The translations under genes and the position numbers were made by a program. The notes under the pieces are model-generated. The model was not told where the DNA came from, did not search any database, and was given only the letters and a program-made list of their open reading frames with translations. 49,453 bases of DNA, taken from positions 230-49,682 of the forward strand of contig NZ_WUYX01000051.1 of assembly GCF_009834785.1 (NCBI RefSeq). The letters are read 5' to 3'. The DNA comes from Natronorubrum halalkaliphilum (lineage in GTDB: Archaea; Halobacteriota; Halobacteria; Halobacteriales; Natrialbaceae). How positions within the stretch are numbered: position 1 is the stretch's first letter; each line of letters opens with the position of its first letter. Shown here in pieces: positions 2,307-31,610 of the stretch.

Positions 2307-3401
2307 ATGGACGAACGCGTACGCGAACACGCGGCGGTACTGGTCGACTGGAGCGCTCGTATCGAGGACGGAGATAACGTCGTTCTCTCCGTCGGGCCCG
2401 ATGCCCACGAACTCGCGGTTGCGGTCGCCGAAGCGCTCGGGGAGCGGGGAGCAAACCTGCTCGCGACGTACAGCTCCGGTGAGATCACTCGCGCGTACCT
2501 GCGAGCGCACGACGGCGAGTTTGACGAAAACCCGGCTCACGAACTCGCGTTAGTCGAGAACGCGGATGTGTACCTCTCACTCGGCGGCGGCCGAAACACG
2601 AGTGCAACGGCGGACGTTCCGGGGGAAACGCGACAGGCGTACAACAGCGCCAGAAGCGAACTTCGCGAGGCTCGAATGGATACTCGCTGGGTGTCGACGG
2701 TCCATCCGACGCGCTCGCTGGCCCAGCAGGCGAACATGGCCTACGAGGAGTACCAGACGTTCGCGTACGACGCAATCTTGCGCGACTGGGAGTCGCTGGC
2801 CGACGAGATGGCCCAGATGAAAGCGTTGCTCGACGACGGGTCGGAGGTCCGACTCGTTTCGAACGGTACCGATCTCACCATGTCGATCGACGGTCGGACG
2901 GCGGTTAACAGCGCTGCGTCGGTCGCCTATGACTCGCACAACCTCCCCAGCGGCGAGGTGTTCACCGCGCCGTACGCGACGGAGGGTGAGGTGACCTTCG
3001 ACGTCCCGATGACACTCCACGGGGAGTCGGTCCGAAACGTCCGTCTCGAGTTCGAGGACGGGGCGGTCGTCGACTACGACGCCGACCAGGGCGAGGCGGT
3101 CCTCACCGAAATCATCGAGACCGACGACGGTGCGCGCCGACTCGGCGAACTGGGAATCGGGATGAACCGCGGTATCGATCGCTATACGGATAACATCCTC
3201 TTCGACGAGAAGATGGGCGACACGATCCATCTCGCGCTCGGTCGGGCTTACGATTCGAACCTTCCCGACGGCGAGTCGGGTAACGACTCTGCAGTGCACG
3301 TCGATATGATCACTGACGTCAGCGAGGACTCGCGACTCGAGATCGACGGCGACGTCGTCCAACGTAATGGCCGATTTCGTTGGGAAGACGGCTTCGAGTG
3401 A
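2307..3401 (+). CDS. M29-family aminopeptidase
   Basis: A 364-residue cytoplasmic metallo-aminopeptidase of family M29 (AmpS/PepS/aminopeptidase T type) that removes N-terminal residues from peptides using two metal ions. The typical length and order of motifs are present: 'NLPSGEVFTAP' carrying the first metal-ligand Glu, 'GELGIGMN' with the second Glu, 'DEKMGDTIHLALGRAY' with the ligand His, and 'AVHVDMI' with the final His-x-Asp pair. All expected ligands appear intact. A TTATTTATC box lies near 2220, about 85 bases upstream, so the leader may be long or a closer promoter was missed. Confidence 0.93.
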   Translation: MDERVREHAAVLVDWSARIEDGDNVVLSVGPDAHELAVAVAEALGERGANLLATYSSGEITRAYLRAHDGEFDENPAHELALVENADVYLSLGGGRNTSATADVPGETRQAYNSARSELREARMDTRWVSTVHPTRSLAQQANMAYEEYQTFAYDAILRDWESLADEMAQMKALLDDGSEVRLVSNGTDLTMSIDGRTAVNSAASVAYDSHNLPSGEVFTAPYATEGEVTFDVPMTLHGESVRNVRLEFEDGAVVDYDADQGEAVLTEIIETDDGARRLGELGIGMNRGIDRYTDNILFDEKMGDTIHLALGRAYDSNLPDGESGNDSAVHVDMITDVSEDSRLEIDGDVVQRNGRFRWEDGFE

Positions 3402-14996: not shown

Positions 14997-15070
14997 GGGC
15001 TCGTGGTCTAGCTGGTTATGACGCGGCCTTTACAAGGCCGAGGTCGGTGGTTCGAACCCGCCCGAGCCCA
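14997..15070 (+). tRNA. tRNA-Val (anticodon TAC)
   Basis: A 74-base cloverleaf. The acceptor stem pairs GGGCTCG with CGAGCCC with discriminator A. The anticodon arm CGGCC-TTTACAA-GGCCG carries TAC in its loop, and the T arm contains GGTTCGAACCC. No intron is present and CCA is not encoded. A TAAAGGTTATT element about 30 bases upstream fits a TATA box. It is followed by a repeat of its own 3' end (15167-15191). Confidence 0.97.
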
Positions 15071-15191
15071 CTATTGCTGGCGCGAACAAATTCGTGAGCG
15101 CCAGCACTGTGATGCGAGCGGTGGGTTCGAACGACGGAACGAGCGAACGGTAGTGAGCGAAGTTCAGGTGGTTCGAACCCGCTCGAGCCCA
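15071..15191 (+). repeat. tRNA-Val-trailing palindromic element
   Basis: Directly after the tRNA comes a perfect 8-bp hairpin, GCTGGCGC (15076-15083) and GCGCCAGC (15098-15105), with loop GAACAAATTCGTGA. Then comes an inverted T-arm-like segment (GCGAGCGGTGGGTTCGAAC), a second hairpin motif containing GCGAACGGTAGTGAGCG, and finally a near-perfect direct copy of the tRNA 3' end (15167-15191, 24 of 25 bases). The same order is seen after tRNA-Phe and tRNA-His. Confidence 0.8.
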
Positions 15192-20684: not shown

Positions 20685-20758
20685 GCCGCCTTAGCTCAGA
20701 CTGGGAGAGCACTCGACTGAAGATCGAGCTGTCCCCGGTTCAAATCCGGGAGGCGGCA
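20685..20758 (+). tRNA. tRNA-Phe (anticodon GAA)
   Basis: A 74-base cloverleaf. The acceptor GCCGCCT pairs with AGGCGGC plus discriminator A. The anticodon arm CTCGA-CTGAAGA-TCGAG carries GAA, and the T arm is CCCGG-TTCAAAT-CCGGG. There is no intron and no encoded CCA. It is followed by about 420 bases of repeats derived from its own 3' half. Confidence 0.97.
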
Positions 20759-20898
20759 TACTTCTGCGGCGAGCAAATTCGCGAGCCGCAGGTATGCATC
20801 CCGAGCGGATTTGAACCAGACGAGTCGCAGCCCGGGAAGCGAACGCAGTGAGCGGCCCGGAACGTCTCGGCGAGGTTCAAACCCGGGAAGGCGGCATG
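20751..20898 (+). repeat. tRNA-Phe-trailing element, repeat unit 1
   Basis: A 148-bp unit starting inside the tRNA acceptor stem. It contains hairpin CTGCGGC/GCCGCAG with loop GAGCAAATTCGCGA, an inverted T-arm (GAGCGGATTTGAACC), a nested hairpin AGACG..CCGGG..GCGAACGCAGTGAGCG..CCCGG..CGTCT, and a direct T-arm plus acceptor copy ending GGCGGCATG. It is nearly identical to unit 2 at 21033-21179. Confidence 0.88.
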
Positions 20899-20930: not shown

Positions 20931-21040
20931 CTGGACCCGACTGAAGATCGGGCTGTCCCCGTTCCCGCGAGCGCAGCAAGCGGGAAGTCGAAAGACGAGC
21001 GAAAGCGAGTCTTTCGGAAGTTCAAATCGGGGAGGCGGCA
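20931..21040 (+). pseudogene. tRNA-Phe pseudogene split by two hairpins
   Basis: A partial tRNA-Phe copy. The anticodon arm CCCGA-CTGAAGA-TCGGG (20936-20952) keeps the GAA anticodon with a compensated base pair relative to the real gene (CTCGA/TCGAG). The T stem is also still paired (CCCCG/CGGGG). Between T stem and T loop lie two perfect hairpins, TTCCCGC/GCGGGAA and CGAAAGAC/GTCTTTCG. The D arm and 5' acceptor strand are not recognisable. Confidence 0.7.
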
Positions 21041-21179
21041 TACTTCTGCGGCGAGCAAATTCGTGAGCCGCAGGTATGCATCCCGAGCGGATTTGAACCA
21101 GACGAGTCGCAGCCCGGGAAGCGAACGCAGTGAGCGACCCGGAACGTCTCGGCGAGGTTCAAATCCGGGAGGCGGCATG
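21033..21179 (+). repeat. tRNA-Phe-trailing element, repeat unit 2
   Basis: A second copy of the unit at 20751-20898, with only a handful of differences (for example GCGTGA for GCGCGA in the loop region and GACCCGG for GGCCCGG). It starts at the acceptor end of the tRNA pseudogene and ends with another T-arm/acceptor copy, AGGTTCAAATCCGGGAGGCGGCA. Confidence 0.88.
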
Positions 21180-31111: not shown

Positions 31112-31191
31112 TACGGATTGCTGTAACTATGTACCGCCGATCACCAGGGACAGGGTCGGTGATCGGCGGTCATTGACTACAGTAAACCGTA
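31112..31191 (+). mobile_element. MITE, family 2 (80 bp)
   Basis: An 80-bp near-palindrome from TACGGATTGCTGTAACTA to GACTACAGTAAACCGTA, flanked by a perfect TGA duplication (31109-31111 and 31192-31194). The hairpin arms ACCGCCGATCACC and GGTGATCGGCGGT match the element at 18597-18675 in reverse orientation. Confidence 0.88.
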
Positions 31192-31200
31192 TGAGGACTG

Positions 31201-31355
31201 CCGTGGCGAACAACTCCGCGAGCCGCGGAATCGTCTGGGTGCGAGAATCGAACCAAAGCCAGACGGTCACCCTCACTTCGTTCGGGCGCTGCGACTGACA
31301 GGATTCGATTCTCTCCCGGGACTTTTCGCTCCTCACGTCCGTTCGTCGCGAAAAA
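31201..31355 (-). repeat. tRNA-His-trailing palindromic element
   Basis: Read from the tRNA on the minus strand: a hairpin of ACTTTTTCGC with GCGAAAAGT, an inverted T-arm copy (GAGAATCGAATCC), a second hairpin containing AGTCGCAGC and GAACGAAGTGAG, a direct copy of the tRNA 3' end (31233-31254), and a hairpin whose plus-strand form is CCGTGGC/GCCGCGG with loop GAACAACTCCGCGA (31201-31228). The order and loop sequences match the Val and Phe elements. Confidence 0.75.
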
Positions 31356-31428
31356 GTCCGGGTGCGAGAATCGAACCCGCGTCTCAGCCTCCACAAGGCT
31401 GAAGGATAACCACTACCCCAACCCGGAC
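31356..31428 (-). tRNA. tRNA-His (anticodon GTG)
   Basis: A 73-base gene on the minus strand. The anticodon arm is CAGCC-TTGTGGA-GGCTG with GTG. The acceptor GTCCGGGT pairs over eight positions with ACCCGGAC, consistent with a genome-encoded G(-1) opposite C73, the identity mark of tRNA-His. The T arm contains GGGTTCGATTCTC. CCA is not encoded. Confidence 0.96.
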
Positions 31429-31610
31429 ACGCTTACACCCTGAATTAGGAGCGGTTGGACTCAAATACGTTACGACTCGAGTACGACCCTGTGCGAGTCC
31501 GTACCGCGGGTTCGGCTGTGTTACCGGCTGCGTGCCGACGACGGCGGTCCGTGACCCACGGCTCACGACCGGGACGTTTTTCGGCACACAGCCTCTAGGA
31601 GCACCAACGC

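Follow-up and report, generated by a model that had tools for sequence, protein, structure and literature searches.

Arrays of hairpin units separated by copies of the host tRNA 3′ end lie behind many tRNA genes of haloarchaea

The question raised by this locus is why a tRNA gene should be followed by a hairpin, a T-arm-like sequence, a second hairpin, and a near-exact copy of the 3′ end of the same tRNA. The DNA stretch analyzed here (the window) is 49,453 nucleotides of contig NZ_WUYX01000051.1 of Natronorubrum halalkaliphilum, designated contig C3 of genome G000, a genome of 4.56 Mb. A preliminary description had reported this arrangement behind tRNA-Val, with hairpin loops recurring behind tRNA-Phe and tRNA-His, and had proposed a defined element that captures the 3′ end of whichever tRNA it sits behind, possibly a small integrating or retro-type element or a structured tRNA trailer. 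The arrangement it described is confirmed and proves to be more extensive than reported. The interpretation offered is only partly supported, as discussed in the sections that follow.

Organization of the units in the window

Behind tRNA-Val, tRNA-Phe, and tRNA-His the same order is found, namely the tRNA 3′ end (T3), hairpin 1, an inverted T-loop (T3′), hairpin 2, and T3 again. The tRNA-Val (TAC) gene identified by ARAGORN occupies positions 14997–15071 on the forward strand (the Rfam tRNA match ends at 15070), and its last 21 nt (15050–15070) are the proximal T3. Hairpin 1 at 15076–15105 (+) is GCTGGCGC / loop GAACAAATTCGTGA / GCGCCAGC, a perfect 8-bp stem with a loop of the form GA-AC-AAATTC-GT-GA. 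T3′ at 15114–15131 (+) is the complement of the T-stem and T-loop, with the T-loop part at 15125–15131, and it pairs with the distal T3 in the predicted fold. The hairpin-2 cassette (CGACGGAACGAGCGAACGGTAGTGAGCGAAGTTCAGGTG) occupies 15132–15170 (+) and includes the motif GCGAACGGTAGTGAGCG at 15143–15159; related cassettes are found behind Leu-TAA in this genome and behind Asp in congener G001. The distal T3 at 15171–15191 (+) is a direct repeat of tRNA positions G53 to N73 with 20/21 identities, and the longer copy GGTGGTTCGAACCCGCTCGAGCCCA at 15167–15191 is identical to the tRNA at 24 of 25 positions. The 124-nt trailer folds at z = −6.2.

Two qualifications apply to the features at tRNA-Val. 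First, the T-loop core GGTTCGAACC is self-complementary, so that an inverted orientation cannot be distinguished there, although it is clearly inverted behind Phe, His, Lys, Glu, and others. Second, the motif GCGAACGGTAGTGAGCG is not unusual as a string on its own (0.41 expected at up to 3 mismatches), whereas the hairpin-1 loop is (3 found, 0.02 expected).

The tRNA-Phe (GAA) gene at 20685–20758 (+), with proximal T3 at 20738–20758, is followed by three successive units. The first comprises hairpin 1 at 20764–20791 (+), CTGCGGC / GAGCAAATTCGCGA / GCCGCAG; the T3′ core ATTTGAA at 20809–20815 (+), an unambiguously inverted T-loop; a type-A hairpin-2 cassette at 20816–20874 (+), hit by the covariance model R1 described below at contig positions 21032–21116 (window 20803–20887); and T3 copy 1 at 20875–20896 (+), GTTCAAACCCGGGAAGGCGGCA, with one inserted base. 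The second unit at 20939–21040 (+) is a tRNA-Phe relic from about the anticodon stem onward, the T-arm of which is interrupted by two GA-tipped hairpins, with T3 copy 2 at 21020–21040; the same relic unit is present in congener G004. The third unit at 21041–21177 (+), consisting of hairpin 1, T3′, and a type-A hairpin 2, ends in T3 copy 3 at 21157–21177 (21/21). On the reverse strand, tRNA-His (GTG) at 31355–31428 (proximal T3 31356–31376) is followed by hairpin 1 at 31323–31355, the T3′ core AATCGAA (inverted T-loop) at 31304–31310, a hairpin-2 cassette at 31254–31303 (R1 hit at contig positions 31470–31545), and a distal T3 copy at 31233–31253.

Distribution behind tRNA genes and across the class

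The neighborhoods of tRNA genes were then examined as separate stretches, with copies sought without gaps at 16/21 or better. In the genome of the window the pattern also follows Lys, Arg, Glu, Met, Leu, Ser, and other tRNAs, while Ala, Pro, Thr, Ile, and others lack it. Copies of the tRNA's own 21-nt 3′ end occur behind 110 of 202 tRNA loci, as compared with 6 of 443 tests using another tRNA's 3′ end in the same flanks. The value of 110/202 is inflated because some loci were retrieved through their resemblance to the element; genome-by-genome samples, from which frequencies should be taken, give about 4/22 to 20/32. The exact string of hairpin 1 was found in 20 stretches of named genomes, nearly all from Natrialbaceae and nearly all immediately behind a tRNA, with one chance hit in a bacterial MAG. 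At tRNA-Val-TAC the pattern is present in most of the genera of the family sampled and in some other families, with different hairpin 2 in different species.

A covariance model of the commonest hairpin-2 type (R1), built from 45 sequences, hits 139 of 145 genomes of the class Halobacteria, representing 55 of 58 genera, with up to 31 hits per genome, and none of about 100 genomes of the phylum outside the class; the genomes are species representatives, and E-values of this model are rough. Of the 11 listed hits in the genome of the window, nine are behind tRNAs and two, on contigs C16 and C45, are behind tRNA 3′-end copies without the tRNA. Of 23 listed hits in two other genomes, G027 and G028, 22 proved to be behind a tRNA or a half-tRNA, the count leaving out one hit (G028:C1:229295) that was not examined. 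Of the five hits in these two genomes that have no listed tRNA close upstream, four, which exclude that same hit, resolved to Leu-TAG, Cys, Arg-GCG, and a half-tRNA-Gly, so that elements away from tRNAs are not supported. Absence of the layout behind other tRNAs, or loops not conserved beyond chance in a genome-wide search, had been set beforehand as conditions that would refute the proposal; neither refuted it, the layout recurring behind many tRNAs and across the class, and the notion of a defined element that captures the 3′ end of whichever tRNA it sits behind is supported.

The possibility that the units are footprints of larger mobile elements, in which plasmids or viruses integrate at the tRNA 3′ end, carry the hairpins beside their attachment site, and decay to the remnant between two copies of the tRNA end, is considered very unlikely. 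Haloarchaeal elements do use tRNA genes, and partial tRNA duplications are reported (PMC3119063; PMC8371274). Arrays displaced from their tRNA are also consistent with larger elements having integrated beside them: the two arrays in the genome of the window at C16:14627–14711 and C45:1–320 have tRNA-Val-GAC and tRNA-Tyr 3′ ends but no tRNA upstream, as if larger elements had integrated between tRNA and array, and in G028 (C1:121300–121630) the 3′ half of tRNA-Gly-TCC followed by an array lies about 8 kb downstream of the intact tRNA-Gly-TCC, a likely integrated element with an anticodon-region attachment site. However, no match to the hairpin-1 or hairpin-2 patterns was found in IMG/VR contigs and no match in GenBank phages, and the two plasmid hits are behind plasmid-borne tRNA genes or pseudogenes. 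In one of these (plasmid CP031304.1, positions 2350–2590 of the stretch retrieved) a tRNA-Glu gene is disrupted by a hairpin in the anticodon stem yet is still followed by a unit. The units are moreover far too regular and class-wide for remnants.

The direct and inverted repeats

Over 112 units the direct repeat matches the host tRNA at 95–100% for positions 0 (G53) to 18 and at 81–85% for positions 19–20. Identity falls to 67% at position −1 and to about 16–46% further out, and to the background of unrelated tRNAs after the discriminator, whereas other tRNAs match at about 25–60% at the variable positions. The repeat therefore consists of the 21 nt from G53 to the discriminator N73, is gene-specific, and has sharp edges; most copies are 21/21 (72 of 123). 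The absence of any trace of CCA, together with the lack of any observation pointing to reverse transcription, leaves the retro-type origin suggested in the preliminary description without support.

An inverted T-loop lies inside 93 of 112 units, as compared with 9 for shuffled heptamers. When it is searched without reference to the host tRNA, its base at position 57 agrees with that of the host in 115 of 125 cases and at position 60 in 104 of 118 two-state cases (p about 1e-21 and 1e-11, respectively). In the type-A alignment this stem and an inner helix covary, with 96.1% of cells paired as compared with 81.1% in shuffles and a covariation score of 0.443 as compared with 0.164, a value reached in 0 of 500 shuffles and far above every slid control. 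Hairpin tips have tandem G-A mismatches, short GNA-type or longer loops, and an R-Y pair that switches between A-T (46) and G-C (44), with 2 G-T and no A-C.

The resemblance of T3′ to T3 is best next to hairpin 2 and fades with distance (T-loop about 90%, T-stem about 55%, acceptor near background), as foldback copying would give. Foldback around hairpin 1 is rejected, since T3′ matches the tRNA not at all in the acceptor part next to hairpin 1. The gradient is nevertheless in keeping with passive repeats, in which hairpin-prone sequence behind tRNA genes would be amplified by replication slippage, template switching, and gene conversion with no dedicated machinery, quasi-palindrome correction would make T3′ match T3, and direct-repeat recombination would make the unit indels. 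Exact tandem duplications and the parity of G-T and A-C mismatches described below also fit this view. Although it explains T3′ and the indels well, it does not explain why the same hairpin-1 and hairpin-2 families occur behind many types of tRNA, strictly behind tRNAs, throughout one class and not outside it, nor the tRNA-side bias of private units described below, and it is regarded as possible but unlikely.

Selection at the level of RNA or DNA

If the transcript were selected to fold, G-T should outnumber A-C among mismatches. The observed counts are 73 G-T and 68 A-C in the T3/hairpin-2 stem and 35 and 29 in hairpin 1, and selection at the RNA level is thus not seen; an earlier, smaller count by another method gave 25 and 11, so that this is evidence against RNA selection and not proof. 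Within the hairpin-2 core A-C even exceeds G-T (45 and 12), which is attributed, without proof, to conserved non-standard positions. A structured RNA trailer, in which the arrays would be transcribed with the tRNA and both hairpins would serve as processing signals, in stability, in protein binding, or as decoys for tRNA 3′ ends, is favored by the almost invariable orientation relative to the tRNA, the covarying tips, the strong covariation of two helices, very stable predicted folds, and conservation at Arg-GCG across families. On the other hand, presence and absence at the same tRNA vary greatly within one genus, and T-runs of 4 or more after the tRNA are about as common with units (43/136) as without (26/109). 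In addition, the minimum-energy fold of the whole transcript suggests that T3′ could invade the tRNA's own T-arm. In a search of Rfam 15 at the gathering threshold, only tRNAs and an unrelated ribosomal leader matched. The trailer is therefore not supported as the selected function, although the tips do covary as folded nucleic acid, and this reading remains doubtful.

Gain and loss of whole units

Between congeners G001 and G004 the arrays differ by whole units, the length of which equals exactly one repeat period. Clean filled and empty sites are observed at Glu-TTC, where the flank is homologous, and at Ile-GAT and Arg-TCG, where the flanks are less well conserved. Where arrays share units, the private units lie on the tRNA side in Val, Ser-CGA, two Asp arrays, and Met, and distally in Ser-GGA, a polarity that rests on five or six arrays from essentially one genome pair. 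For Val the private unit is a gain in G001, because its second unit is the first unit in G004, G005, G006 (also a congener), and G008. Other genomes hold tandems with exact periods of 157, 122, 121, and 120.

Hairpin-2 cassettes are shared between tRNA loci. In 60 of 72 cassettes from five sampled genomes the nearest hairpin-2 relative sits behind a different tRNA, and in G001 the Phe and Ile loci share a cassette with a single difference. The two bases at each hairpin-2/T-loop junction are hypervariable (0.20–0.32 as compared with 0.056 mid-cassette), and in G027 hairpin-2 cassettes are flipped between the inverted T-loops behind two tRNAs, Ser-GGA and Phe.

A tentative model of recombination at the tRNA T-loop

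What the analysis demonstrates is a family of short, protein-free cassettes (about 80–135 bp plus repeat) in arrays directly behind tRNA genes of Halobacteria, each composed of hairpin 1, T3′ (inverted T-loop/T-stem), and hairpin 2, separated by 21-nt copies of that tRNA's 3′ end, and differing between relatives by whole cassettes at T3. That these constitute a DNA recombination system with no cargo of its own is inferred, as are the site, substrate, and enzyme proposed below. In this view the tRNA T-arm is the landing site, the left edge of the repeat at G53/T54 is the strand-exchange point, and everything 3′ of it, the rest of the tRNA, is duplicated by insertion, since a left edge at the T-loop and a right edge at the tRNA end are what insertion at a tRNA attachment site would leave (archaeal att sites: PMC8371274). 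T3′/hairpin 2/T3 would fold as one strand into an imperfect hairpin whose outer stem recreates a double-stranded T-arm, which a recombinase supplied in trans could recognize, by analogy with folded attC sites of integrons (PMC3053210) or CTX-phage attP. New cassettes would enter mainly next to the tRNA, the only copy with an intact T-arm on both sides, and hairpin-2 cassettes would spread between tRNA genes because all share the T-loop.

Taken together, the observations fit such DNA-level, non-autonomous cassettes better than a trailer RNA or remnants of larger elements, and the small integrating element of the preliminary description is plausible in view of the exact whole-unit presence and absence, the shared hairpin-2 cassettes, and the tRNA T-loop boundary, but the model as a whole is held tentatively, its least certain parts being the enzyme and whether the host gains anything or the arrays are selfish. 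No recombinase has been linked to the arrays and no circle or junction was observed, and gain and loss at 21-bp direct repeats can also come from ordinary homologous recombination or slippage. Some units are conserved at orthologous tRNAs across families (Arg-GCG), which is slow for an active mobile element. A simple integrase model also has difficulty explaining how a cassette carrying another tRNA's T3 could insert without damaging the recipient tRNA, so that the model does not account for the origin of gene-specific T3′ and T3. A more far-reaching possibility, considered unlikely though not excluded, is a new kind of polarized repeat array, in which the tRNA body acts as leader and the tRNA 3′ end as repeat, and a dedicated haloarchaeal recombinase inserts hairpin cassettes next to the tRNA by reading the folded single strand as its attachment site, possibly keeping tRNA genes restorable or shielded when larger elements integrate there.

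Relation to previously described systems

None of the families compared takes the arrays as a member. The component parts, palindromic non-autonomous repeats and tRNA-end duplication, are of known kinds, but no account of their combination in such arrays, and no function for them, was found in the literature searched, in which subscription journals are poorly represented. The 178-bp repeats of E. coli tyrT, associated with RtT RNA (Rfam RF00391), are reported to be tandem repeats behind a tRNA, each containing a copy of that tRNA's 3′ end (Egan and Landy, 1978); they belong to one tRNA operon in enterobacteria and are not known to include a hairpin-1/inverted-T-loop/hairpin-2 cassette. Integron attC sites and cassette arrays resemble the present arrays in having, at each unit boundary, an imperfect palindrome with a variable tip and conserved outer boxes beginning G-T-T, with cassettes separated by recombination sites, but the resemblance is one of anatomy and analogy only. 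The haloarchaeal arrays have no gene cassettes and so far no identified IntI, their neighbor is a tRNA gene, the outer box is the tRNA T-loop, and the repeat extends to the tRNA end. CRISPR arrays and casposon insertions (for example PMC4046053, PMC6977970) have repeats separated by units, a repeat duplicated with each unit, and private units mostly at one end, a polarity that is only suggested here by five arrays with private units on the tRNA side and one with them distally, mostly from one genome pair. Casposons also use tRNA genes, but here the units are related hairpins rather than captured foreign DNA, no Cas1 has so far been linked to them, and the repeat is the tRNA's own 3′ end and differs from tRNA to tRNA.

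Haloquadratum PATEs and SMRs and bacterial REP elements (PMC3119063, PMC3733652) are also short, protein-free palindromic repeats, probably mobilized in trans, which are dispersed or target other mobile elements rather than being anchored behind tRNA genes and flanked by tRNA-specific direct repeats; the similarity to repeats of the IS200/IS605 type rests on the resemblance of hairpins alone. Elements integrated by tRNA-targeting archaeal tyrosine integrases (PMC8371274) share the repeat edge at a tRNA loop, the duplicated tRNA 3′ end as flanking direct repeat, and occasional array displacement by larger insertions, but the present units, at about 100 bp, are too short to encode an integrase or other cargo and were not found as a free plasmid or virus in the collections searched. 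They also lack the dispersed insertion, fixed terminal inverted repeats, and short constant target duplication of a MITE, being found behind tRNA 3′ ends with a tRNA-specific repeat. The 3′ ends of tRNA genes are a principal integration site of mobile DNA in archaea and bacteria; arrays built from those very ends, carried by a whole class of archaea, provide a natural recording of recombination at tRNA genes and a handle on an unknown recombination activity in tractable haloarchaea, and they complicate any annotation that uses duplicated tRNA ends to call integrated elements.

Other features near the arrays

A palindromic dispersed repeat of about 80 bp (ACGGATTGCTGTAACTATG...GATCGGCGGT...) lies at 31113–31192 of the window and is MITE-like, with 45 exact-pattern copies in the genome; copies also lie close behind the tRNA-Leu-CAA and tRNA-Met loci. 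The ribosomal leader detected in the Rfam search corresponds to strong matches (75 and 71 bits) to the L4-Archaeoglobi family in Natrinema and Natronolimnohabitans near tRNA-Gly arrays, at positions 1883–1982 and 3215–3314 of the stretches retrieved (L061 and L057).
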